Shown in pieces: positions 2,760-59,930 of a stretch of 64,000 bases of DNA. The notes below the pieces were generated by a model. It searched no databases, was not told the origin of the DNA, and was given only the letters and a program-made list of their open reading frames with translations. Source of the DNA: Branchiostoma lanceolatum (Eukaryota > Chordata > Leptocardii > Amphioxiformes > Branchiostomatidae); the NCBI RefSeq assembly GCF_035083965.1, contig NC_089724.1:26174974-26238973 (forward strand), in the 5' to 3' direction. The first letter of the stretch is position 1; each line of letters opens with the position of its first letter. The position numbers were made by a program, and so were the translations under genes.

Positions 2760-10959
<8,200 letters not shown>

Positions 10960-11626: not shown

Positions 11627-11699
11627 TGATTCCGCCCGGGATCGTACCGGGGACCTTCTGCGTGTTAGGCAGATGTGATAACCGCTACACCACGGAATC
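11627..11699 (-). tRNA. tRNA-Val(AAC) copy with altered T-loop (possible pseudogene)
   Basis: It is a 73-nt cloverleaf nearly identical to the three other Val copies: acceptor GATTCCG/CGGAATC, anticodon loop CTAACAC, discriminator A. The T-loop reads GGTACGATCC where the sisters read GGTTCGATCC, changing the near-invariant position 55 (U to A) and the Pol III B-box at once. A run of four T on the coding strand follows the gene. Loss of U55 should weaken both tertiary folding and transcription, so it may be dead or poorly expressed. Confidence 0.85.
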
Positions 11700-13523: not shown

Positions 13524-13605
13524 GGTAGCGTGGCCGAGCGGTCTAAGGCGCTGGTTTAAGGCACCAGTCTCTTCGGAGGCGTGGGTTCGAATCCCACCGC
13601 TGCCA
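13524..13605 (+). tRNA. tRNA-Leu(AAG)
   Basis: An 82-nt class II tRNA: acceptor GGTAGCG/CGCTGCC, anticodon loop TTAAGGC (AAG), variable arm TCTCTTCGGAG, T-loop GGTTCGAATCC, then TTTT. It is intronless. The roughly 60 bp upstream resemble the flank of the copy at 21849, suggesting duplication of a larger unit. Confidence 0.96.
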
Positions 13606-17414: not shown

Positions 17415-17481
17415 TTACCAAAGCACCAACAGTCTGGAGTCACTGTAGGCCGATACAGGCGGAAGATTTTCTCTCCTGTAT
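17415..17481 (-). CDS. Terminal exon of the NLR gene
   Basis: Acceptor TTCCTACAG, phase 2, then 22 codons to TAA. It adds a short non-LRR tail. The exon is short and supported only by phase and splice site, so it is less certain than the rest. Confidence 0.6.
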
Positions 17482-18976
17482 CTGTAGGAAAAGATGTGAT
17501 GTCAATAATGCGTCATATAAAATAAAATCTTTATGGAATTTGATTATCGGATACTATTTCATATCTACCTAGTACACAGCAGGCAACCCACTAACTGGAA
17601 GGGCATTACGTAACCACAAACATCTTCCACTGCCGAAATGTAGAAGTGAGAGACTTAAAAGATATTTTCTGTACCAAGCGACCCTGCTCCACAACACATC
17701 TCTTAAAGCCTTAATGTCGAATACCTCCGTATAGATTACACGCACTCTAATCTATGTATTTTGATGACTTATACGGTACGCATTTCAGCATTTAATAAAT
17801 CGTCTTAACTTAGCTTCTCTTAAAAATTATTAATATTTTTAAAATCAATATTGTGTAAATTAGCTGTAACTCAGACTGTTGTCTTGGCTGTCTGCTGAAT
17901 GCTAATAAAGATCTTTTGACTTTTTTTTAAATTTTTAACCTCATCCCTTAGCTTCATTAAGAAGGCATTTGGGACTATTGTACAGAATAATGTACTTACG
18001 ATACAGTTCTCAACTTTCCGTGGTTCTCCGCTTCCTCCATGAAAGTGTCAAACCCATCGGATGTCATGGCAACGCGTCGTAGATGCAACACCTGGAGAGC
18101 AATGATAATTCTAATTTGTAAGAAATGTTATTTTCTGGATGAAAGAATCTGTGTACATTTAAGATAGAAAAGAGAAAACCATTTCTAACAGAACGCCAAA
18201 ATAGTTACTCAAGCAACTGGATAAGATTTTGAAACAGTCAGACGTTTCAGACAAAATCCGCTGTCTTTCGTCAGTGACTAAAGATAGGACTGGAGAACGA
18301 GGTTTTATAATTTAGGATGTCTTGGCGTAGTCTTCAAAAGAAGATTAATTCAAGACAAGGTTTTATGCTAATAGTTCAATTAGCTACTGTTGTTTTAGTA
18401 CAGTAACTAAATGTTGTTCGTCAGGGGGTGGGTGGTGGTGGGCAGTGCATTATCCCAGGTTTATCCCAATTCTAACACAAGTTGGAATTGATCGTAGAAA
18501 GTCGTACCTCTAAGCTGGGTACCCGGGACAACGCTTGTGATAAATGGTTCACGCAGTCGTCAGTCACGGCGAGTTTACCTCCGTACGGCCCGGACAGGTC
18601 CAGCTCCTTAAGCTCCAGCATCTCGGGCAGGTTCTTAAAGAACGCCCTATGAAAAAAATAAGAACATAAAATTTTCGTATACTGACAGATTAATATACCG
18701 ACAGAATAACAGATGATAGTTAAAGCAGAGGAAAACAAGCTATCTGCCACCAAAAAATAAAGACCACAGCACGTCCAGGTCAAAAGATACAAAAACGGAA
18801 GTTCTGCTGCAGTATCAAGGTCACATACCAGGGGCCGAAAATCGACAACACCCGCCCACATACCAAGTATCATCGTAATCCATCTTGAGGTTCTTGAGTT
18901 ATGTTGACTACAATAGTCTGGAAACACAGACACACACACAGACACACACACAGACAAACACACAGACACACACACA

Positions 18977-19039
<63 letters not shown>

Positions 19040-22000
19040 AAAGATCAAAGATCAAAAACAAAGAAAGAATCGCGACTCACCCGACCCCATCGTTCGTCAT
19101 AGGATTGTCACTCAGCTCCAGGTACTGCAGATGCTGCAGGTGGTGGGCGTGCCTCGAAACCGCTTCCAAGCCCTCGTCTCCCACCACGTTGTGAGACAGG
19201 TTGACGCTTGTGAGACTTCCAGCCTTCTCGAAGTTTGCTGCGAACTCTCCCAAGCCCTCGCTCCCGAGAAAGTTGGTGTTCAAGTCGACTGTTTCTAACC
19301 CAGGACAGTGGTGCAGCGACGTGAACAGGCTCTTTGAAGCGCGAAGGTCGAGCCCGTTCCCTTCTAGATTCACGACTCTCAGGCGAGGCAGTGTTTGTAG
19401 ACTTCCTGAGAGAGTCACGGCGCCGTCAGGCCCGATCCGACATCCTTTCAGGTTGAGACTGCGTAGGTTTGTCAGAGATCCCAAACCTTCCAGCAGTATC
19501 TGAACACTTGCTCGGTCATCTACTTGATTTCCTTCCAGATTGCACTCTTCCAAGTTACCTAAAGGACATGTCTTGAAAGCGTCTCCAAGCGCAACGCACG
19601 CTTTCTGTGTCATGCCAGACTCTCGTAAGTTCAGGGTTCGAAGCTCACTCAGATACTTAAGACTGTCACTCAACGTCTCAAGGGTATCTCCCAGATCATT
19701 GACGGATACGTCTATATCTGTCAAGGAAGCAAGTTTTCCAATCGCCGTCAACAGTGACGTCGCTTCTTTAGAAAGGTTATTGTCCGCCACGTGCAGTGTT
19801 TTAAGTGTTCTCTTCGCTCGGTGAATTCGTTTCAGCGCCACAGCTAACGTCTCACCTTCTTCTTTCAGGTCCATGCCACAGAGATACAAGTGCTGGAGCG
19901 ACGGCATTTTCTCAAGTTTCTCGATAATCGGCTTTATCTTGAAATGCGGACTTCTCGAGATTCGGAGTGTCTGCATGGCGTTCAGGCCCAGGAGCGCAGT
20001 CCCAAGGTCGTCGGCGTCTTGGAGCGAGGCGCCCCGCACGTCTCCCAGACTCACCTCGGTGACTGCCTCGACCTGTTTCAAATGCCGCAGGTAGTAGGCG
20101 AGGTATTTCACCACATCAGCGCTAACGTCGTAGAATTCGACCTTCCCCGAGGGAAACAACTCGAAAACGGGTAGCTGTATCTTGTCTTTCGCTCTACTCT
20201 CGTAAAGACATTGCAGGCTGAGTTTGACGAACTCTTGCTGCTTCTGTTTCTTAGTTTCACCGGGAGCGTTCTTCCAGATGCGGAGGAGATGCTCGACCAA
20301 CGCCGTCGCCGCTCGTTCTGAAGTGCCACAGGCAAACAAGATGACGTACTTCAACTCCGACACACGCTGCAATGTCTGAATGCTCGTCAGGTACTTTTTC
20401 GTCTCCCTCTTTGACGTAGTAAGTATGTTGGCAAGGTGACAGCCAGCCATATACTCCTGAATGGTTTTGTGAGAGAACGTTAGGTGGCGACCTCCATTGA
20501 CTCTGCTATGCGGCTGTTTATCATCGTAACTAAAGACGCCGAGCTCTGCCACTCGCCTGTCTTTGGTCATACCGAGTAGATCCGCCTCTCCGAAAGACAC
20601 TTGGTCAGACAGTAGACACTCAAAAGCCACCTTGCTTACTACCTGGAGTAAGCTAGCTATGTCTCCGCTTCCTATAGCTTCGCCATGCTTGGCCTGGTAC
20701 CGCTTGATGATGCAGCTCATGAGCTCCTGGTACAGCCCGGTGATGGTTGCCGGCAGGACAATGTCAGGCTTGTCCTCATACAGAACACTGATGAGCATGG
20801 TAAACATCGGGATGGTTGCGATGCCCCTGTTGGCGATGTGTGGCTCCAGGTGCTGCAGGAGGTCATGAACCTTGCCCTCCTGACCTTGGAAGTGTCGCTT
20901 CAGATATTGCCTCACGTTATCGGGCGAAAATCCGGTGATTTCTACCACCGTGTCTGCCGTGGGCTGGATCTCGTCGACCTTCGATGGGCGTGTCGTCGTC
21001 ATGACGACCGCTCTTGGATACACCCTTCCCTTCAAGAGTTCCGTGATGTCAGGACACCTTGCTGAGTCGAACTCATCGTACCCGTCTAGCAGGATCAGCA
21101 CTTCGCCTTGCTTTTCTTCCAGACACTTTGCTAAGTCTTCCTTCGTGTAGGGAAAACCCGTTGGCATCAGCTGATCAAAGATGGCGTCGATGATGCTCAT
21201 TCCCTGACCAATCAGACGCAGTCTCAGCACGAAAGCGAGGTTGATCCTTTTCAAGGCTTGTACCTTCTCCAGTGACCAATCGACGGCCAGTTTGGTCAGT
21301 GACGTCGTCTTCCCCACGCCTGCCTGGCCTTGCATCACAATCCTCATCGGCCGGCGCCGTCCGAGTTTCTTCCTCGATCTGAAGATGTCTTCCATGGACC
21401 CAAGACTCACACGGTTAACCTAGGTGGGCATCAGGCAACACGGATAAGAATATGAGTATCGACGCCCTGGACATTACACACTACTATCATCAAGCATTTA
21501 GCACCTGCGTTCTCCTACAATATTATTTCATTATCATAGCTCAATAGTTCGCAATTATACCCTGCACAAGAAGTTGCTTGCTTTCTTATCATTCTTTGCA
21601 AGTCAGGCTTTTTAGGCTTATGATATGCTTTTTTATGGATGTAATATCAGTTGCAATTAATTGTACTGCGTTTCTGAGGCGGCGGCCGTCGTGAAACCGG
21701 TTCCAATTAGACCGATGACCCCCAAAAGCCCGACTTACAGAACCTGCTTAGGAGGTTATAATGCTAAACTAAGCTAGAAAGATACACTTTTTATGGTGGC
21801 GGCCCCTGCAATTCGGAATGAGACATGTTGCGGTGTACACGCCATGACGGTAGCGTGGCCGAGCGGTCTAAGGCGCTGGTTTAAGGCACCAGTCTCTTCG
21901 GAGGCGTGGGTTCGAATCCCACCGCTGCCATGACTTATTTTATCTTTCTTAATCAAAGTTAATCTACAAATTTCTGGTCAAGTCCAATTTTTGTGTTGGC

Positions 22001-25000
22001 AATTTGCAGTTTAACTTTAATTAAGAATTGCCTCTACCTACACAGATAAACATTCAAGTTGTTTTATCTTTGTTCACATGAGAAAAAAAATACACTAAAC
22101 TCTGTAGACATACTCTGCTCTATACCCTCGTTATGCTTGGGTCACATTTCCAATCCGGGGCCCGGCCGGGCAGTCTTTGGGAACGTTAAGTACAATATTA
22201 AAGACAACGAAAAGCAGAAAACGTACCAAAATTATCTAAGAGCATAGCTTGTGCATATTTATTGATATACACTTTGATTTCTCGTTTCCGCAAACAGCCC
22301 GGCCAGGTCCCGGCTGGGAAATGTGAGCCCAGCATAAAGTCTTTATGATTCTTTATCATGATAAAAAAAAGCCGCGAGTTTCACAGGACTGACCTTGAAC
22401 CCCTCCATGGTCTCCTCCAGTAAGTCCAGGTTGGTGTAGACGTCATCTATCGGCACACAGAAGCTCTTGTTCCACGGCAGCGGCTGGATGCGACTCAGGT
22501 TCCTCCTGTACTCGTTACGGAGTGCTGACCGGCAGGACGTCATCACGAGCTCCAAGTGGTCCTCTAGAGCAACAAAAAGAACTTATTTTTTTATCAGAAA
22601 ATGGAATCTCACAGAAGATGTAAAGATCCGGCTTTATGCGTGTTTTTGCGGCACATCTTTCTAGTACCACCCAGTATCCAATGGCAACCTATCGAGCTAT
22701 GTCTGTAATAAAAGTAAGCTCGTGTTTGGTACAGTGAGATGAATTGCTTTTGACCACTCTAATTCGAGTCCCAAGGCATCTAGCTTAACTCACACCGCAA
22801 CAAAAATTAAGAAAAAAAAAACATGATTAGTCTATATTTTGTGGGAAATTATTATCCTTCGTAAGGTAAACTAGATCACTTTCATTTCAATCATTTTCCA
22901 GTGCATTTGCTGTAGCAGGTAAATATGTACACTGGAAACCACGTACTAGTGCAAAGATGTTGTCATACCTGCTGCTATCTCCGAAGAAGTTCTGTTTTGC
23001 GAGCCTTCCGATGCGATGCTCATCTGGGTCTGCATGCCGATCTGCACGTTCTGCACGTTGCTCAGGTAGTACTGCTGCACTCCGCCAGGAGCCGCTGCTG
23101 CACTGGCTAAATTTTGAAATGAAAATAAGCGGTTAGAATAGGATATTGTTATATACAGCAATCGGGGTGCCAGGCTGCAACGATATCGGAGTTAGGTGTA
23201 TTTTCCTATTTATAAACGCCCCAACCGATGAGTGGAAGATCTCATGGGATTAACAGCGGTCACTCCACTATATGGGGTCCTTCAAGTATGTAGACAAGCA
23301 CGTGGCTCTTCGCCTTGGTAAACACACACCTGGCTGTGGCTGCTTGGGGTTTGTTGACTCGCTAGGCGGCGGTTCTTCCAGTGAGTACAGCGCGCTGCCT
23401 TCCGAACTTGCGTCCGACTCGCAGCTGAATGACCTTGACATTCCTTGACCTTCAGACGGATAAGGAGCTGACCACTCGCCAGCGCTAGCACCCTCTGGTG
23501 ACCCTGGGTTCGGGTCAGGTTCTCGTTCCCTAGCAGGGAGTTCACTAGCCGGCACATCCTCCTTCCACCTCTCCACCCGGTCCCTCAGCCCGCCAAGTCT
23601 CAGGATCGCAGACGACAGTTCGTCCCACAGGCTGCAGAAGTTCTCTGACGTCACGGTTGTCGTTGCCTTGACGACCAGGTCCTGGTAGATGCCGTGGACG
23701 CGGACGATGTCATGGACGGGAGTTTTCTGGGCGGGAGAGGGGTAGTGCTCCCAGCCCTCCCACGCAATGGACCTGGGAAGGCCAAAGTACACGAGAGAAC
23801 TGTAAGTACATAAACACAGGTAGCACATTCACCGCGCGAAGGGGGGCGATTTCCGGCCAAACTGAATTTTGGCACATCGCTCGGCATGTCGAGTACCCGG
23901 ACCGTTTACATTCTATATTCTAATACAGGAATTGTACATGACATTGCGAATCCGGAAAGATAAGACGGATGGCGGAGTTATCAGATGTTATTAAGATAAT
24001 TACTCAAACAATCTATGATTACCCTATCAAGCACCCTGACCATTCCGTTACAACCCAAATATCCGATATATTGACCTGTAAAAAGGTTGCTTTCAACGCC
24101 AAAGAAAAACCAATACTTCTGATTCTTTCGTATAAAAGGCGTATACGTGTCATGTACGTTTCTGTGGTGCAGATATAAGGACTCAATCGATAGCATGCCT
24201 TTGTAAAAGTTCTTAGGATCCTCTTATTACAGCTTCTGGCTAATTACCAAGACTCTTCTAACACATCCAGTGTTTTTTTCTTGTCGGTGTTTGATACCAG
24301 TTTGATACTAACCTTGTCCGGCACAGGTAGCGAATGAGGAGGAACATAACGGCGATGTCTAGGGATCCCGGGCTCACGTGACCGCTTACAGGAAACAATA
24401 GGTCATATTGTTCCCCGCTAAGTACCTGTGCGTAGGGAGGATAGTCTCTTTTAATGATACATTTTATATAGGTGCATGTTTGTTTTCTTGAAATCACAGA
24501 ACCCACAAATTCTAGAAAAAGGTGGACTTTTCGTCTTCCATTACCTCCAAAAAAAGAAGTCAAACCCAGCTTTAGATGTAGCCAACAGTCGTATTTAGTA
24601 TTAGTGACCTATTAACAAAGTCAGTCACAGTTTACTGACACATGTATGTTTTCCCTATGTTTATACCATGTATTTGCAATTAGCCCACGGGCATGAACTT
24701 GCAATAAAACTTTACTTATTAGTATACCTAAAGTTTTATGATTTTCCGACACAACCCTGCAAGATCCGTCCTGGACCGAACTCTATCTGTTTGGAAATGA
24801 CGCGTAATGTGTTGTCATGCAAAAGGACCTAATATTATCACACATTCACAACGAAATACAGACATACATATATTGTAAATACTGTACGTCCAAGGCGGTG
24901 GAAGACGAAACACATTTTATTTCCAAGTGTATATTTAACAGTGACGAAAGAACCGAATTATTTAAACAAGTTATCACGAAATATCCCCACTTTTGCACAT

Positions 25001-25857
25001 TCACAGATGAACAAAAAGCTACCTATCTCTTGAAATCACAGAACCCACAAATACTAGAAAAAGTGGGACTTTTCGTCTTCCACTGCTTCCAAAAAAGAAA
25101 TCAAACCCAGCTAATTTAGATATAGCCAACAATTGTATATAGTACCAGTAACCTATTGTTACAGCAAAGTCAGACACAGTTTACTGACGCATGTATGTTT
25201 TTCCTATGTTTTTATCATGTATTTGCAATTAGCCCACGGGCATGAACTTGCAATAAACTTCTTCTATATTCATCGACCTCCACCCTAGCTATATTTTGAC
25301 TGACCCCTTACCTCTTTTTTCATGATCTCGTGAATGAAATGCAGCTAGCAGGACGATTTGAGTTTACATGAATAGATAAAGGCTCAAACAAACGAAGCAA
25401 AAAAACAACAAGCAAGCAAGCAAACAAACAACAAATAAACAAACAAGCAAGCAAGCAAACAAACAACAAATAAACAAACAAACAAGCAAGCAAGCAAACA
25501 AACTAACATACAGACTCCAAACTGCCATTCTCCCAGGACCAGAATTTTGCCTCAAAGCAGATGTTACGACGGCATACTGTCTTCCTGACACAAAACTTGG
25601 ACAGCGAAAAAACTTTACGATTTAGCACCTAACATCTGCTTGGAGCTTACCTTGCGGCGTCCGTTAGTGCCGTTCAGAAGGTCGTTCATGACGGACTTGT
25701 TGGTCTCCAGCACGCCGGACAACGTCTGTGACGTGAAGGCACCATGCGCATGCGTGGTGGGGAGGGTCTTCCTCAGGAAGTGTCGCACCCTGTCCTCTCC
25801 CTCAAACTTCAGCAGGTTCGCCAGGCGGCGCTTCAGACGACCCTCTTCGTCTTCCAT
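17415..25857 (-). CDS. NLR receptor: HEPN(DZIP3-like)-RHIM-like-NACHT-LRR (9 exons)
   Basis: Exons in coding order: 25857-25651, 24425-24313, 23772-23330, 23106-22969, 22563-22394, 21419-19081, 18646-18508, 18091-18000, 17481-17415. Phases match and the sum is 3708 nt (1235 aa). It is probably a cytosolic innate-immune sensor. Residues 1 to about 205 resemble the DZIP3-type HEPN fold (EQYDLLFP, DIAVMFLLIRYLC, RLGGLRDRVERWKED). A Ser/Glu/Pro-rich linker follows, then VQNVQIGMQTQMSI (272-285), which matches the RHIM core. NACHT: PIDDVYTNLDLLEE, Walker A GQAGVGKTT (Lys394), Walker B LILLDGYDEF, sensor VMTTTRPSK. About nine or ten ribonuclease-inhibitor-type LRRs follow, the last split over three small exons. 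The ligand is unknown. The start is the first ATG after an acceptor at about 25892. Confidence 0.9.
18197..18310 (-). repeat. Dispersed repeat ('CAAGCAACTGGATAAA' family), copy 2
   Basis: It contains GTTACTCAAGCAACTGGAT and CGCTGTCTTTCGTCAGTGAC, the inverse of the copy at 3245-3395. It lies in an NLR intron. Confidence 0.65.
18924..19035 (+). repeat. (CA)n microsatellite
   Basis: Starts as CACAGACA and becomes pure CA, 112 bp in all, beginning 46 bp past the donor of the large NLR exon on the minus strand. Confidence 0.95.
19081..21419 (-). CDS. Large NACHT-LRR exon of the NLR gene
   Basis: This 2339-nt exon holds the NACHT ATPase and most leucine-rich repeats (units such as LRTLNLRESGMTQKACVALG). 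The acceptor is CACCTAG before GTTAACC and the donor is GTGAGT. There are no internal stops. NACHT and LRR in one exon implies no splicing between sensor and motor parts. Confidence 0.95.
21849..21930 (+). tRNA. tRNA-Leu(AAG)
   Basis: It has the same 82-nt sequence as the other Leu copies, followed by TTTT. It sits inside an NLR intron, transcribed opposite to the host gene. The upstream flank (CCCCTGCA, GACATGTT, CATGACGGTAGCG) matches the 13524 copy. Confidence 0.96.
22131..22337. mobile_element. MITE, ATGCTxGGGTCACA family, copy 1
   Basis: Terminal repeats TTATGCTTGGGTCACATTTCC-like at both ends, with GC-rich subterminal CCCGGCCGGGCAG. It is clearly the same family as 56290-56493 across its full length of about 205 bp. 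It lies in an NLR intron. Confidence 0.8.
22969..23106 (-). CDS. RHIM-like exon of the NLR gene
   Basis: A 138-nt exon of 45 full codons plus split ends. After Ala/Gly-rich residues comes QQYYLSNVQNVQIGMQTQ and then MSI. RHIMs of RIPK1, RIPK3, TRIF and ZBP1 have a (V/I)Q(I/V/L)G core followed by a hydrophobic residue about five on; VQIG with MSI fits that. RHIM assignment is from the short core only and the flanks are low-complexity. Confidence 0.65.
23330..23772 (-). CDS. HEPN second half and linker exon of the NLR gene
   Basis: It begins SIAWEGWEHYPSPAQKTPVH and continues through NFCSLWDELSSAILRLGG, which matches the C-terminal helices of DZIP3-type HEPN domains. The usual RxxxRN...H catalytic pattern reads here as RVHGIYQD, so the RNase motif is degenerate. 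The rest is a Ser/Pro/Glu-rich linker. An Alu-like or transposon origin is not seen. Confidence 0.75.
24313..24425 (-). CDS. HEPN middle exon of the NLR gene
   Basis: It encodes VLSGEQYDLLFPVSGHVS and then LDIAVMFLLIRYLC, the most recognisable block of DZIP3-type HEPN (normally LLYP...DITLLFxLLRNLC). Acceptor CGCACAG, donor GTTAGT. Confidence 0.8.
24485..24713 (+). mobile_element. LINE 3' end, copy 1
   Basis: Closely matches 25020-25260, from TTGAAATCACAGAACCCACA to the terminal GGCATGAACTTGCAATAAA. It is a 5'-truncated non-LTR copy inserted in an NLR intron. Confidence 0.85.
24800..25260 (+). mobile_element. LINE 3' end, copy 2, with ORF2 C-terminus
   Basis: An open frame at 24817-25119 encodes the C-terminus of a non-LTR reverse-transcriptase protein: a CKYC...H...C zinc-type motif (YCKYCTSKAVEDETHF) and a FVFHCFQKR tail. 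The 3' end is GGCATGAACTTGCAATAAA. It lies in tandem with copy 1. The 5' limit is uncertain. CR1/L2/Crack-type clades are candidates. Confidence 0.8.
25381..25506 (+). repeat. AAACAAGC-rich simple repeat
   Basis: Irregular CAAACAAGCAAG units over 125 bp in the NLR intron. Confidence 0.9.
25651..25857 (-). CDS. First coding exon of the NLR gene
   Basis: A 69-codon exon starting MEDEEGRLKRRLANLLKFEG and ending NGRRK, donor GTAAGC. It forms the N-terminal helices of the HEPN region. An acceptor (TTCTGCAG) at about 25892 implies a 34-nt 5' UTR piece and an upstream non-coding exon. Confidence 0.8.
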
Positions 25858-26980: not shown

Positions 26981-28794
26981 CCCTTGTCCTGCTGGACTTT
27001 TTTTACCCTATAGTAGTCCCTGTGCTGGGCTTTTTTTACCCTATTTAAAGGAGGGGTACTGCTTTAACTTTGCTATTTTTTTGATACTTTGCCCACAAAT
27101 AACTCTATAAAGTTATATATCAATACAAAGCTAAGAGTCTCTACTTTTCAGAAATATATTGCAAATTTTCCCTGCACCTACCTGTATTGATTGATAATGG
27201 CAATAAATCAATAAAAAACCTTTTTTTTTCAAAAACCTTTTGTATTGAAGTATCTGAACCATATAAAAAGTACCAATATCAAAGCTGCAGCATTCCTGAC
27301 ACATCCTGACAACATCAGAGCTATATCTATGATGAAGAAGTTCACCCAGGTATCTCAGCAGGTAGGTTTATGACCATACAATGTCCATGGTGCTGAACTG
27401 GCTTTTCTGTAGAAAAGCTTTGCCATTTAGATTTAGTATACTTCTTTCTTTACCTCTATTACAATCACTTTCCTACACATCACCTGAAAGCTTACAACAG
27501 GTATTATCTTTGGAATTCCAAACAAAGTAATATCATTGAATACAAAGGTAATAAAGATACAAAAGGCAATAAAAAGTACATTATTCCACAAAGTTTCCAT
27601 TTACTGCTGCATAGCACCAACACAGAGGTCTCTACCAAGACTACAATGTTGCTGACCACTCTTGGCAACATCAGAATGATACATGTGAAGAAGTAAAATA
27701 CACAGGTATTGTAACAGGTGAGTACATGTATATGGTTGTAGACTGCCCTTGGTGCTGAACTCACTTTTGAGCAAAATCTACACTCTCATACAGAACAGTA
27801 CACTTCATGCTGTAGCCATAGAACAATTGACACTCTAGCTTTCTATACATGAGTGGAAAGCTTATAGTCTAAACTTTCTTGTCATATCAACATACAGTTG
27901 TTACAATCTTTACTAAAGGCTATATCATAATAAAGACATAGAAAGCAATAAAAAGTACATTATTCCACTATGCTTTCATATGCCTTTGTATAGCATCAAC
28001 ACACAGGTTTCTACGAAGACTACAAAGTTTCTGACCAGTTTTGACAACATCAGAATAATATATCGTATTATATGTAAAGAAATACGAATTGCAGATATTA
28101 TAACAGGTGAGTATATGGCTATCAAAGTCTGAGACTGGTCAGCCCCACAATAGAAATCATGCACCACTTCCCCGCCAGCGACCACGGTCACTACCTCCTC
28201 GGGCACGTCCACGCCGTCCTTGGTAAGTGCCCCGAGCTCTTCGACGGCTAAAAGTAGCGTCAGCGCCGCTTTCAAGTTCATCAGCAACGTGTAAGGGTCC
28301 CTCTCCGCTTGCCCCGACATGTCTTCGAGGCCGATGTTGTGACTCCCCGTCTTCGCCAGAACTGTCACTGATTTCAGCGGAATTTTCGCTTGATAAAGGA
28401 TATTCCACCCCTGAATCGTTCGTGAAAATGTCCTCTAGAACGTCTTCGACCGTGTACCGATCCATTTTGGCGTTTAAATACCGATATTACGGCCAGAAAC
28501 ACGGAAAATATCTCTCCGAAAACATACCAGCAGACGACGCGCCATCATGGCCGCCTCATTAACATATGGCCTCATTAACATATCGCGCATGCGTCGTGAG
28601 ATGAATTGCGTAACAATAATTTTGACCCTTGACCCCGACGATGTTGCAACACTATGTTACTTCCGGGTTTCGGGAGTTACGCGGGGGTGCGACGCGTTCG
28701 TGCCGGAAATACCCCCAGCGCCTATATATAGGCGGTCCGCAGGACCCGCACATTATCCGTAGCGCCTATATATAGGCGGTCCGCAGGACAAGGG
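26981..28794. mobile_element. piggyBac-like transposon, internally deleted
   Basis: The termini are CCCTTGTCCTGC and GCAGGACAAGGG, with TTAA at 26977-26980 and 28795-28798. At 1814 bp it is too short for a complete transposase gene. The right end carries two copies of GCGCCTATATATAGGCGGTC (28710 and 28762), a palindromic subterminal module. A minus-strand frame (28157-28465) looks like the acidic transposase N-terminus. The 209-bp element at 53134-53342 shares the right terminus. Confidence 0.85.
28157..28465 (-). pseudogene. piggyBac transposase N-terminal remnant
   Basis: The frame starts MDRYTVEDVLEDIFTNDSGV and is rich in Asp, Glu and Ser before turning Arg/Gly-rich. An acidic MDxxTxEEVL-type start is typical of piggyBac/PGBD4-like transposases. 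The catalytic DDD core is absent from this element, so it cannot be active alone. Confidence 0.6.
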
Positions 28795-55300: not shown

Positions 55301-58300
55301 GATACATGGGGACTGCAGATGGGCAACATCAATGGAGTTTGTACCCTGGAATCCAGAGCAATTGTACCGAGCTTCCCCGGACCTACACCGGTCCGCGCCC
55401 GGAGCTTCCCCGGACCTACCCTCCCGCTGGCCCGACAACGTACCCCGCCCCACTTCCCGCTAGCCAAACAAGCTCCGCTCTAGTACAATAGTGCCTGGCT
55501 GAAGCAGCCGTTTCAGAGCTTTGTACGGCTGCGGAGATTGGGTGGTTAGCGGATAGTGGAGCGGGGTAAATCTTCGGGGGGATCCGGAAGGGTAGGCCAG
55601 TGTAAATCAGAGCGCGGGCCGGTACATATGCTCTGGATTCCAGGGTATGGAGTTTGATACAATTGAGTGCGATCGGAAACCAATCCCTGGATACATGTAT
55701 ATCAGGCTTACGTTTGCATTGAATTTCAAAATGGAACTTTATCAAAGTTCAGACAACGAAAAGCGATATCACCCGTCATTTGAACACTTCCATATTGAAG
55801 TGCAGATTGAAGTGCAGTTATGCAAGCATAGAACTGTTTTGCATTCTATGCTTGCATGCATTTCATTCTATGTTCTCTGAAGAAGAAAGAAACCACCAAA
55901 CAACAAACAGGAAAAGAGAACTATAGAATAGCTCCATTACCATTATTCAAAAGGTCCTCATCCGCCTGATCCGGCAGTTTCTCCACCGTGTGGAAGAAGC
56001 GCAGCTCCCCTATCTTGTCCAGGATGACGTGTTTGTCCTGCGGGTTGTCCACGCCGAAGTCCCTCTCCAGACGTAACATCGTCAGAGACAGCAGCGCCTC
56101 GCCGTTTATCTTCTTACTGAAGAATTTTTTCCGCAAGGGCTGCAGATGCTCGGGCCAAGACGACTGTCGGAACAGCAGTAGCGTTACACACGGTCATGAG
56201 GAAAGCTAAGCCGAAGCCTCAAATTTGTCCCAGGGGACTGCCGGATACCGAGGGGTACATCTAGCTCGGTGTTCTCACGGATCGTAGTAATGCTAGGGTC
56301 ACACTTTCAATCCGGAGCCCGGCCGGGCAGTCTTTGGGAACGAAAATTATGATATAAAAAGACAACCAAAAGACAAAATGTACGCAAAATCATATAAGAG
56401 CATAGCTTGTGCAAATTTATTGACATACACTTTGATTTTTCGTTTCCGCAAACAGCCCGGGCGGGCCCCGGTTAGGAAATGTGACCCTAGCATCATACGT
56501 AGAGTGTTTGTTACCGGGTCCCGGTATAGTTAAAACACATCCCGGGCCCGGTCGTGCCCCACAATATCCCGGTAGCCGTAAGGTGTCCCAATGGGCCACG
56601 TAGGGGTTATGTTCGAAAGTGTCCGGCGGGGCCCCTTTTTGGCGACGCCATAGGGGCGAGCCTAACAGTATTCCAATTGTAACTGAAACATAAGTCTTAA
56701 GTTAGTATTGTTTGTGAGCATTGTTTTGTGGTGACCGGTAGCAAAAATACAGTGATGAGAATTATGATCAAAGAAAGGTCACATGGATCTTTTTCTTTAT
56801 TAGAAATTGCAACAATACAATACACAGTGGAACGCCAGGCAGACAAGCTGATGTTGCGGACCACTCAACATTACAATTACACTGAATAAGTCAATAAGAC
56901 ACTTAGACAATTCATAGCATGATACCATCTAAAACAATGCATGATACAATATAAAACAATGCATTAAGTATGGATGTTTGTCCAGAATCAACAGCTTACC
57001 TTTATCCACTTCTTGACGTCTTTACGGCTCCAGTACCTGACAGTCTCGGGATCGGGACCGTCCCTCGTGTCGCTTGTGGACTGGAGAACAATCGGTCGGA
57101 ACCCCATCGGGCTCACGTCTGTCGGCGGTTTGAGCTTTGTATGGGACAGCTGAAACGTGCGCTGTCGGGGAGGAACCAACACGACACAAACATCAGCAAA
57201 CAATGTGGGCGAGCGGATGGGAATATGACGTTACAGCTATAACATAATCTAGCAGATGAGTTGATGGCTGTGCCAGCATTTTTCTTGAAACAAAAACAAA
57301 AACAATACATATCTATCAAAGTCCTGGGTCAAAGCATTCAAAGCTAGCAGAAAGATATTAGATATCACTTGGCTTACCCCCAATGTCATCGTTCTATCGA
57401 TGACTCTGGGCAGACCCATGGCGGGTTTCGGTGGAAGTGCAGGGGGCTTCGTGCCATCCTCCTGGTGAAATAAAGAACACTTAAAAGTCCTGCCCGACTG
57501 CCATACATGTGACTTAAACTGTTCTTGAATGTCAGTACGTATTGTAGACACGATGAAAAGAATAAACCATACATTGTAAAATGGTGATTCATACAAATAT
57601 GCGTCGCGTGGCATAAGTCATTCAAGATACAAGGATCAGCAAACCGATTAAAAGCTTCAAGCTTTACTTTGTGTATGGAAATATCGTATTGAAATCTTTA
57701 ATCAATATTAATATAAATTGTGCATGGTTCTGGATCGTAGTTTGATAAAGAAATGCTGGATGATATAGAGGAATCAATAAGAAATATAGAGTGGTCACAG
57801 ACCTTGTAACTCACATCTTCAAAGACCGGAGAGTACATGTCCCCTGGTGTGCTTCCTTCTTCAGTCCTTCTGAAGAGGGAAATTATGCAGAAACGCAATA
57901 GCTTCGATAAATAAATAGTTGGATGGACGGCCAAATTCTAGTCTCCAAGCAGATGTTAGTAGGGACACGTTTTCCTAGCTGGCCTTTGCTTTGACAATCC
58001 GCTTCCTACACATCTGTTTTGGTTTGTCAAGGAAGCAGTTTCTCACAGAGCCGGGCATCTAGAAAAACGTAGCAATTTTGCTTCACAACGTCTGCTTGGA
58101 GATTAGGCAAATTTGTCATACACTAGAAATATGCACTAGTATATTACTCAATGTGAACTATTCCCTATTTACCAGAAGAATATAATCCGAGACAATGTTG
58201 TAGCAAAGAACACAAAACTCTTACTCGTCTTTCAGGTGACTGTAGTCGACGGCATAATAGTCGTGCTTGGGTTTTTCCCCCAGGGTTGGAAACAGCGGCA

Positions 58301-59918
58301 TGTACACCTGCTCGTTACTTGCACTTTCAGCTGGAATGACCTCATACGTGTTTGACTGTTGGCGTTGGATGCCCGTGAAGCTCCTTTGGGGCTGTGTGCT
58401 GTCCGTGGTTAGGGTTGGATCTTGGCTTGAAGAAGACAGTTTCTTCTGAAGCTCCACGGCCATAGCTGACACGCTCCCAGCGACAGCGTAATTTCCAGTA
58501 CCCCCACTCTCGCTACCGCTGTGATGGTGTTTTCGTCCGTCACTTTGACCTGTCGATCCTCCGCTGTCTGCGACGTTTAGGAGTATGTTGGGAGAAGACA
58601 TCATCTTCTGAAGATTTTTTGCCCGAGTCATCACACTTCCAGAGGCGTGCTCTTGTCCAGGACTAATGTCTGCCCTGTTTGTGGGTTCCTGCTTCAGTTT
58701 GTCTTCTGTTACATTTCGTGATTCGGGGAAGAGTTTTGTCTGAATCTGTGAGGCTATAGTCGTAACGCTGGGCTTACGTTGCTCACCGTCGTTTTTATCC
58801 TTTGGCTGTAGCTTTGGGGAAGACGGTCCGTGGTCACTACTAGGCGATTTCCCTGGACTGCTAGGTTTATCAGTTTGTGACGCGTGTTGATCCGATGTTG
58901 CGTTTTGCTGAAAAGAATTGATCATGTCCAACACGGATGATCTCTTCCTCATAGGGACAGGAGGAGCTGGAGCCTTCTTCTTCTTGGCTCCTGCAGCAGG
59001 AACCTCGGAATGTCGGCGTTCGCGTTGTCTCGAAAGGCCTTGGGCGCCCTCGACACCATCATTTCCAGTTTGCCGTCTCTGAAACTCTGGCGTCACTGGC
59101 GCACTAGACGGTTGTCCTGGGCTCAGATGCTGTTCCATCATCTTCGCCTTTTCTAAGACAGACTTCTTTTCTTCTTGCTCTGTCGTCTCCTGCGTTGCCT
59201 GAGGAACAGCAGGTGTCTGGAGGCTTCGATCCTTTTCAGCCTCTCGAGGAGGTTCCTGTCCGGTAGCGACACTGGGAAAGACTGGCGGTCCCTTCTTGTC
59301 TTTAGAGCACGGGTCGTTTTCTACCCAATTAGCCACGTCGTCATAGTCACCAGGAGACGCTATGCTCTCGTGTTCTCGTGAAAGTGTAAGAGGGGTTAAT
59401 GCATTTCGTGCTTTCATTTTAAAAGGGGTGCTGTATTCAGGCTTGTTATTGCATGGGGGCACAGTGTTGCTTGTTTTGACTGCGCTCTGGACAGTGCTGT
59501 CCTCTACAGAATCTTTACTCTGTGGCGGAGGAGGCGGTGCCACATTGGGCTTGCTCAGTACCATTGATTTTCGCCGACTTGCAGCTGTTTGTTTGTCTCC
59601 TTGTTGGGGTTTTGAGTCTGTCTTGTCCTGTGCTTTAGGCTTGTCCTTCGGTGAACTTGTGGGGCTTTGGAACTGTCCTATGAGATCGGCTAACTTGTTC
59701 CTTTGCGGGGATGTTTTGGCTTCATCTGGCTTGTTATCCTCTGATGTGACCTTGCTGTGAGGAGGCGTTTTTTCCACGAATTCCTTTAACTGCTTGAATT
59801 CTGTCGAGGTGACGTTAAGGCTACGGTTATGTCTGCCATGTCTTGGTGGATCACTTGGGAGGTCAAACGACTTTGATCCTGTAGAGGGACGAAAAGTTTC
59901 CATAATGGATCCAAACAT
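46387..59918 (-). CDS. Ephexin-type RhoGEF with SAM domain (17 exons)
   Basis: Exons in coding order: 59918-58225, 57869-57803, 57461-57378, 57161-57000, 56163-55941, 55312-55191, 54508-54452, 54003-53843, 52507-52355, 51404-51275, 50883-50809, 49878-49795, 48948-48821, 48336-48163, 47673-47585, 46951-46841, 46478-46387. Phases match; 3606 nt, 1201 aa. It should load GTP on Rho-family GTPases at the cell cortex. Residues 1-600 are Ser/Pro-rich with candidate phosphotyrosines (DYYAVDYS, EQVYMP) and PPKP. SAM about 655-722 (YWSRKDVKKW, INGEALLSLT). MYQNY (746-750) matches the ephexin autoinhibitory YQxY motif. DH about 800-985 (EILSKQSSYMKSLQVL, VMPMQHVTRLPLL). PH about 1010-1120 (RWLEKTGNVTEV). 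SH3 about 1137-1193 (DGRAGILPERVL). Vertebrate ephexins (NGEF, ARHGEF5/15/16/19/26) have DH-PH-SH3 but no SAM that I know of. Confidence 0.92.
47775..48094 (+). mobile_element. tRNA-derived SINE in a RhoGEF intron
   Basis: The head carries an A-box-like TGGTGTAGTGG and B-box-like GGTTCAAGCC, then about 200 bp of non-tRNA body, then a TTAACTTTAACTAA tail. It is transcribed opposite to the host gene. Confidence 0.75.
49318..49797 (-). mobile_element. 5'-truncated LINE abutting a RhoGEF exon
   Basis: The minus-strand frame 49780-49463 encodes a non-LTR ORF2 C-terminus with a CPSCQNSVEDEYHFLMKCP zinc-type motif. The 3' end reads ACAATTGTCGAGCAATAAA and matches 2645-2700. Recognisable LINE coding (GKFCRMADLYTHII) begins at the donor GTAAAT of exon 49878-49795, so the LINE starts at or within a few bases of that splice site. 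Confidence 0.8.
49795..49878 (-). CDS. 84-nt DH exon between SINE and LINE
   Basis: It encodes AVKRCNEAARCMADSMEVQG plus eight more residues, the last DH helix (V..CNE.AR.M in ephexins). Phase 0 on both sides. The acceptor CTCCAG is preceded by the SINE's ATT tail and the donor GTAAAT runs into the LINE. Exon identity is clear from the domain. Confidence 0.85.
49889..50237 (-). mobile_element. tRNA-derived SINE with ATT tail
   Basis: The minus-strand head GTGTGGCGCAATTGGTAGAG (A box) and GGTCCCGGGTTCGAAACC (B box) are tRNA-like. A body of about 250 bp follows, ending AATAAACCATTATTATTATT. It differs from the SINE at 47775. Confidence 0.85.
51467..51800. mobile_element. Foldback element with about 90-bp arms
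   Basis: AACAAGACTAAACTTTTCC, GGGACTTACCCCAAATTTTC and GACTCCATCAACCCTGTTCA pair with the right arm. Related single arms occur near 6190 and 10430. It lies in a RhoGEF intron. Confidence 0.8.
52073..52093 (+). repeat. Poly-G run
   Basis: About 20 consecutive G in a RhoGEF intron. Confidence 0.9.
53134..53342. mobile_element. piggyBac-type MITE (209 bp)
   Basis: CCCTTATCATAG at the left and GCAGGACAAGGG at the right, with TTAA at 53130-53133 and 53343-53346. The right terminus equals that of the 26981-28794 element, which could be its larger relative. Confidence 0.8.
54933..55118. mobile_element. Foldback MITE
   Basis: ATTCGTAGATTAGAATACGC and ATGTGCAGTGTCAAGGTGAA pair with the right arm. 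It lies about 70 bp from RhoGEF exon 55191-55312. Confidence 0.8.
55342..55647. mobile_element. MITE with 9-bp target duplication
   Basis: TACCCTGGAATCCAGAGC and its complement end the element; TGGAGTTTG is repeated exactly on both sides (55333-55341, 55648-55656). It inserted about 30 bp upstream of a RhoGEF acceptor. Confidence 0.85.
56290..56493. mobile_element. MITE, ATGCTxGGGTCACA family, copy 2
   Basis: It matches 22131-22337 end to end (CGGCCGGGCAGTCTTTGGGA, GAGCATAGCTTGTGCA, CGTTTCCGCAAACAGCCCGG). The two copies are in the same orientation. Confidence 0.85.
57938..58106. mobile_element. Foldback MITE, CTCCAAGCAGA family
   Basis: CTAGTCTCCAAGCAGATGTT and its complement bound the element. 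Flanks GCCAAATTC and GGCAAATTT resemble a decayed 9-bp duplication. It is kin to 16527-16700. Confidence 0.65.
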
Positions 59919-59930
59919 GGAATGCGAATT

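Follow-up and report, generated by a model that had tools for sequence, protein, structure and literature searches.

Animal proteins in which a HEPN_DZIP3 domain is fused to NACHT and leucine-rich repeats (LRRs) appear in a published table (PMC3710099), and bivalves and cnidarians have expanded sets of HEPN_DZIP3-NACHT proteins (PMC9646362, PMC8260672); the fusion of HEPN_DZIP3, NACHT, and LRRs by itself is thus not new. In the pearl oyster, the Rx4-6H signature of HEPN RNases is kept in 194 of 202 HEPN_DZIP3 domains (PMC9646362). Relays in which NOD-like receptors (NLRs) template an amyloid are known in fungi and have been proposed in bacteria (PMC7885112, PMC7889193), and central motifs resembling the RIP homotypic interaction motif (RHIM) occur in fly and viral proteins (PMC7889193). 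For amphioxus, a 2008 paper described NLRs with CARD, DD, or DED connectors and about 21 NACHT domain combinations (PMC2575513). These and later statements on published work follow passages of the papers cited. Here, we describe a gene for a NACHT-LRR protein of the lancelet Branchiostoma lanceolatum, which lies in a stretch of 64,000 nucleotides (contig NC_089724.1, positions 26,174,974 to 26,238,973; henceforth, the window). We put at about 0.4 the probability that its product joins a catalytically dead HEPN domain to a RHIM-like nucleation motif, and that clustering by the NACHT-LRR half would seed an amyloid that acts through RIPK1 on NF-kB.

Gene model and relatives

The gene was rebuilt on the minus strand from 25857 to 17415 as nine predicted exons, totalling 3708 nt including the stop codon and encoding 1235 residues. 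All introns are GT-AG, and one frame runs through the chain with phases matching at each exon junction; the nine phase-consistent exons and the length given in the initial annotation were therefore recovered independently. Of the exon edges named there, 22969-23106 stands as exon 4, whereas 23330-25857 is the span of exons 1 to 3 and not a single exon. The features of the gene are:

25651..25857, minus strand: exon 1, residues 1-69, with the start ATG at 25857; orthologues share the same Met start
24313..24425, minus strand: exon 2, residues 70-106, mid-HEPN, placed by the rebuilt chain and the orthologue alignment
23330..23772, minus strand: exon 3, the end of HEPN followed by a Ser/Pro/Glu-rich linker (residues 178-254)
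22969..23106, minus strand: exon 4 (RHIM-like), 138 nt, 46 codons, residues 255-300, with symmetric phase 1-1, placed by codon score and orthologue alignment
22997..23083, minus strand: invariant run of 29 residues (263-291), GVQQYYLSNVQNVQIGMQTQMSIASEGSQ, identical in four sequences
22394..22563, minus strand: exon 5, residues 301-357, a pre-NACHT segment that is also well conserved
19081..21419, minus strand: exon 6, residues 358-1136, with NACHT, the helical region after it, and LRRs
20886..21341, minus strand: NACHT match (PF05729), with Walker A GQAGVGKT at residues 388-395 and Walker B VLILLDGYDEFD at residues 464-475
18508..18646, minus strand: exon 7, residues 1137-1183, the last LRR region
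18000..18091, minus strand: exon 8, which P0001, the database model of B. lanceolatum, appears to skip
17415..17481, minus strand: exon 9, which carries the stop codon, placed by the rebuilt chain and the orthologue alignment

Codon usage was scored for each exon after training on the remaining exons, the model frame being compared with intron windows of equal length. Exons 1, 3, 4, 5, and 7 scored above all such windows (for exon 4, 0 of 524 reached its score); the result was weaker for exon 2 (score reached by 6 of 549 windows) and exon 8 (7 of 573), and exon 9 was not distinct (99 of 604). Exon 6 is longer than any intron window, so no comparison was available for it. The HEPN match rose from 33.2 bits with the exon-3 frame alone to 75.1 bits with exons 1-3 joined; joining these exons therefore completes the domain. 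A tblastn search of the window with the model (E 0.01) found no paralogues, an LRR self-match aside.

A protein search with the contiguous exon 6 as query (limit E<=1e-10) returned three proteins among 166 candidates. P0001 is a B. lanceolatum protein of 1196 residues named NLRC4 and is 95% identical to the model; P0002 (NLRP12-like, 88% identical) and P0003 (NLRP13-like, 86%), both of 1237 residues, come from records named as B. floridae crosses and probably represent the non-floridae haplotypes of those crosses. The latter two align with the model from its first to its last residue, matching all nine exons, the small exons 8 and 9 included. P0001 agrees with the model as far as exon 7 extends; beyond that, it terminates as if exon 8 were absent: without exon 8 (18091-18000), the model would end ...IQERKSSACIGLQ, and the annotated end of P0001 is ...LQEGKSSACIGLQ. 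Skipping of exon 8 may thus provide an alternative C-terminus. All three proteins contain exon 4 and carry HEPN, the motif, NACHT, and LRRs on one chain, which bears out the earlier proposal that these parts belong together. At the level of sequence, the nine-exon chain is confirmed as one predicted gene, which is of course already present in public databases under other names. The three database entries also carry a precomputed Pfam assignment, PF27087.1, that our Pfam scans of them did not report.

A RHIM-like motif in exon 4

Exon 4 encodes NVQNVQIGMQTQMSI. Its core, VQIG (residues 275-278; 23036-23047, minus strand), is the same in all four sequences and satisfies the RHIM core tetrad (V/I)Q(V/I/L/C)G (PMC9444067); the core that had been noticed between HEPN and NACHT is supported, being conserved in the three other Branchiostoma proteins. 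As in human RIPK1, an Asn lies at -4 from the core, and Met and Ile follow the core Gly at +5 and +7. The pattern of Asn at -4 plus Ile at +7 was seen in 0 of 5000 shuffles, but it was chosen after the sequence had been inspected and is not used as evidence. Against a profile of RIPK1 and RIPK3, the 18-residue stretch around the core scores 25.3, compared with 25.0 for the human TRIF RHIM, and with TRIF added to the profile, only 1 of 200,000 random 18-mers drawn with the amino-acid composition of the protein reached the score of the motif. An equally good RIPK-RHIM match arose in 96 of 20,000 shuffles within the protein and in 12 of 20,000 within the exon. The motif is the top RIPK-RHIM match among the 127,894 six-frame positions of the window, which contain seven VQIG-type tetrads, the other six lying in open frames of 9-78 codons.

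The match at the scale of the window is unconvincing by itself; it is the invariance across the four sequences that lifts the motif above chance. Every one of the 29 columns of the motif is invariant, compared with 53 of 89 in the linker, 145 of 177 in HEPN, and 163 of 203 in the NACHT part. When the columns of region 178-301 were shuffled, a run of 29 arose in 8 of 20,000 trials. Pairwise identity ranges from 73 to 88% in the linker and is 100% in the motif for every pair; when the window sequence or P0001 is compared with P0002 or P0003, linker identity is 74-79%, whereas the motif is unchanged. Longer invariant runs do exist elsewhere in the protein, namely 39 residues in HEPN (76-114), 30 across the exon 5-6 joint (334-363), and 44 after NACHT (544-587).

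HEPN and NACHT-LRR domains

The N-terminus had been suggested to contain a HEPN_DZIP3 domain, and a profile search placed PF18738 on residues 44-177, encoded by exons 1-3, well above the curated cut-off (E 6.4e-21, 75.1 bits against 27); the three orthologues gave 70.0, 78.0, and 77.2 bits. The Rx4-6H RNase signature was found within the PF18738-matched segment in none of the four sequences, and the sole string of that type in the first 205 residues, R29-x6-H, lies ahead of the match. With the site placed by eye, the position at which the family consensus would have R-N appears to read Y-Q in these sequences. The domain thus looks catalytically dead from its sequence, and an RNase output is unlikely; if so, the signal is probably carried by some other N-terminal segment. 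A search of the PDB with the HEPN half gave two weak matches, the better at E 0.25.

The other half of the protein has the features of an NLR. Within exon 6, Pfam reports NACHT at 1.6e-25 (90.3 bits, cut-off 26.7) and C-terminal LRRs as LRR_6 at 1.3e-17 (62.8 bits, cut-off 23.4). Walker A GQAGVGKT and Walker B VLILLDGYDEFD are kept in the model and the orthologues, except that Q389 is His in P0003. The solved structure closest to the NACHT exon is that of NLRC4 (E 7.7e-30). No CARD, PYD, or other death-fold domain was matched by Pfam in the model or the three orthologues, and the public names (NLRC4, NLRP12-like, and NLRP13-like) therefore fit the NACHT-LRR half only. Naming the protein as a CARD or PYD receptor was rejected for want of a death-fold match.

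Proposed mechanism

The predicted sequence of events begins with ligand binding by the LRRs, likely leading to assembly of a NACHT ring; intact Walker A and B motifs are consistent with oligomerisation driven by nucleoside triphosphate. The ring would then cluster the RHIM-like stretches of the flexible linkers, which would likely stack, amyloid-fashion, into a cross-beta seed of the RHIM type. Such a seed could recruit a RHIM-bearing partner, for which we favor RIPK1, and recruitment of RIPK1 would turn on NF-kB. HEPN may form a helical bundle that serves in dimerisation or as an adaptor. Exon 4 has phase 1 at both ends and can therefore be skipped without a frameshift; its skipping is predicted to remove the motif from the receptor and might act as an off-switch in nature, and by the same symmetry, the exon could have been inserted as one unit.

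In a 2025 study, mutation of the RHIM weakened or abolished NF-kB activation by RIPK1 C-terminal proteins of lizard, lamprey, and zebra mussel (PMC12119088). The initial annotation had suggested a necroptosis-like output, which is doubtful: a survey speaks against RIPK3 in lancelets and describes B. lanceolatum MLKL as devoid of its N-terminal domain (PMC11507063). NF-kB is thus the better guess, and a RIPK1 to NF-kB route appears likelier than necroptosis.

Evidence against a RHIM and alternative explanations

Several results weigh against the RHIM interpretation. The full RHIM pattern, [IV]Q[ILV]GxxNx[MLI] (PMC9440496), fails on VQIGMQTQM, in which Thr occupies the position of the conserved Asn. 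The RHIM profile PF12721 (cut-off 20 bits) was not reported for the exon in several lengths or for two orthologue versions of it at a limit of E 10, nor was any other Pfam model for exon 4 at that limit, although the HMMER filters drop most matches above about E 0.1; the three full-length orthologues gave no PF12721 match at E 0.1. Human controls did match, with RIPK1 at 23.0 bits, a second RIPK1 at 31.7, RIPK3 at 41.7, and TRIF at 33.2; the profile test proposed in the initial annotation thus gave no reported match, with all three control proteins positive. On leave-one-out profiles, RIPK1 and RIPK3 score 35.5-45.3 against each other, far above the 22.0-25.3 that the exon scores against them. 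Profile-profile comparison (hhalign) set the two cores in register but with P 0.051 and a probability of 1%, and a PDB search with exon 4 found no match. Shuffled six-frame translations gave 75 equal matches in 300, or 0.25 per window, and shuffling the protein produces the bare tetrad in 434 of 5000 trials. A structure model from the three orthologues has a mean predicted local distance difference test score (pLDDT) of 41.9 and is better in the LRR half only; it draws the motif as a helix rather than strands, at a pLDDT of about 26, where the model is unusable. Conservation does not stop at the motif either: residues 292-357, which follow it, are invariant in 59 of 66 columns, and the invariant run may belong to the N-terminal region of NACHT itself or to an arm of the folded NACHT domain. 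The comparison as a whole covers four sequences of one genus, with relatives taken at E<=1e-10.

In lancelet RIPK1, two surveys of domains failed to pick up a RHIM (PMC9573974, PMC11507063), and the motif was not found in lancelet TICAM according to the relevant passages of PMC9440496. Lancelet RIPK1 has, however, been reported to contain the RHIM tetrad, by alignment and not by assay in the passages concerned (PMC12119088); that the domain surveys missed it suggests that little weight attaches to negative profile searches in lancelets. The initial annotation as a whole holds for HEPN, NACHT-LRR, and the VQIG motif, and falls short for RHIM identity by profile. As judged from sequence, the identity of the motif as a RHIM is not proved.

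A serious contender, which we rate as almost as probable as the RHIM-like reading, is that the invariant stretch is another kind of linear segment, for instance one that serves for docking or as an autoinhibitory arm packed on NACHT, and that its likeness to RHIM is accidental. The negative PF12721 search, the Thr in place of Asn, the conservation continuing into exon 5 (59/66 columns), the low-confidence helix, and the ease with which the bare tetrad appears in shuffles (434/5000) all suit that explanation. It fits less well with a fully invariant run that spans the VQIG stretch within an exon rich in Gln, Ser, and Ala, and with a fit to the RIPK RHIMs equal to that of TRIF. A classic HEPN effector NLR, in which the activated receptor dimerises an RNA-cutting HEPN and the motif is a mere spacer, would explain the strong HEPN match and agree with the expansion of HEPN_DZIP3-NACHT proteins in bivalves and cnidarians and with the pearl-oyster domains described above. 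It is unlikely here because Rx4-6H is lacking from the matched segment of all four lancelet sequences, R29-x6-H being outside it, and because of what we take to be Y-Q in place of R-N.

An ordinary inflammasome receptor of the NLRC4 or NLRP type, signalling via CARD or PYD, is what the database names and the nearest solved structure of the NACHT-LRR exon would imply, but because none of the four N-termini gives a death-fold match, we regard it as very improbable. The gene model might also be an artefact that unites HEPN, motif, and NACHT exons from separate genes, and the three database entries may likewise be no more than predictions; nevertheless, the same chain occurs in annotated proteins of other assemblies and all phases agree, making this the least credible of the explanations. 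We therefore retain the dead HEPN with a RHIM-like nucleation motif as our working interpretation. Its evolutionary extension, that a lancelet NACHT-LRR protein traded a dead HEPN nuclease for a splice-removable RHIM exon seeding a RIPK1 amyloid, as the animal counterpart of the fungal PP and bacterial BASS3 NLRs, is more tentative, and we offer it with some doubt.

Other features of the window

Several features lie within the introns of the NLR gene. Intron 5 harbors, on the opposite strand, a tRNA-Leu(AAG) gene at 21849-21930 (plus strand). It belongs to a local tRNA cluster with similar flanks, which also includes two further tRNA-Leu(AAG) genes, at 13524 and 16245, as well as four for tRNA-Val(AAC), at 11627, 12529, 12946, and 13943 (minus strand). 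Intron 1 contains two near-identical repeat pairs (24486-24708 and 25028-25257) of 69 and 93 nt, with 91 and 95% identity; beside them, a frame at 24808-25116 (plus strand), without a Pfam match, resembles a retroelement tail. Intron 6 has a long CA/GT microsatellite at 18930-19035, just downstream of the NACHT-LRR exon.

Ten other reading frames of the window were scanned against Pfam, and one matched: an exon of a cytochrome P450 gene at 8012-8359 (plus strand; Pfam p450, 1.2e-9). An open frame of 569 codons at 58224-59930 (minus strand) gave no Pfam match at E 0.01 and is possibly a real gene. The frame at 28160-28486 (minus strand), which contains MDRYTVEDVLEDIF, also lacks a Pfam match; we take it to resemble the start of piggyBac-derived transposases.

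Comparison with known systems

No animal NLR with a RHIM or RHIM-like motif was found in the parts of the literature searched, although an earlier mention is possible. Should the proposed mechanism be true, a chordate NLR with such a motif would couple NLR sensing straight to a RIPK1-type amyloid, it would become testable whether the RHIM amyloid arose as an NLR output and later moved to kinases and adaptors, and the gene would allow a HEPN with naturally lost nuclease function to be studied in a single-gene system.

The overall plan of the lancelet protein is that of the animal HEPN_DZIP3 (DZIP3/hRUL138-like)-NACHT(-LRR) proteins, with the same order of HEPN, NACHT, and repeats and the same Pfam families. 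It differs from the pearl-oyster HEPN_DZIP3-NACHT proteins, as described in the passages of PMC9646362, in that the RNase signature is gone and a RHIM-like exon lies between HEPN and NACHT. NLRC4, whose structure is the nearest to the lancelet NACHT exon, has its CARD, for which the lancelet protein has no match. Unusual N-termini are common to this protein and the amphioxus NLRs with CARD, DD, or DED, but the passages of PMC2575513 list neither HEPN nor RHIM as a connector.

With the RHIMs of RIPK1, RIPK3, and TRIF, the motif shares the VQIG tetrad and, as in RIPK1, the Asn at -4 and the hydrophobic residues after the core; it departs from them in giving no PF12721 match, in having Thr for Asn, and in having Asn rather than Gly before the core. 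Those RHIMs also reside in kinases or a TIR adaptor, whereas the lancelet motif sits in a NACHT-LRR protein. In this respect, it parallels the fungal PP-motif NLR PNT1 (with HELLP) and the bacterial BASS3 NLRs, which likewise place a RHIM-like motif ahead of the NLR switch (PMC7885112, PMC7889193), although the Pfam PP model has no match in the lancelet protein. The PNT1 motif lies within the first 31 residues and its partner gene is adjacent, whereas the lancelet motif is internal, behind HEPN.

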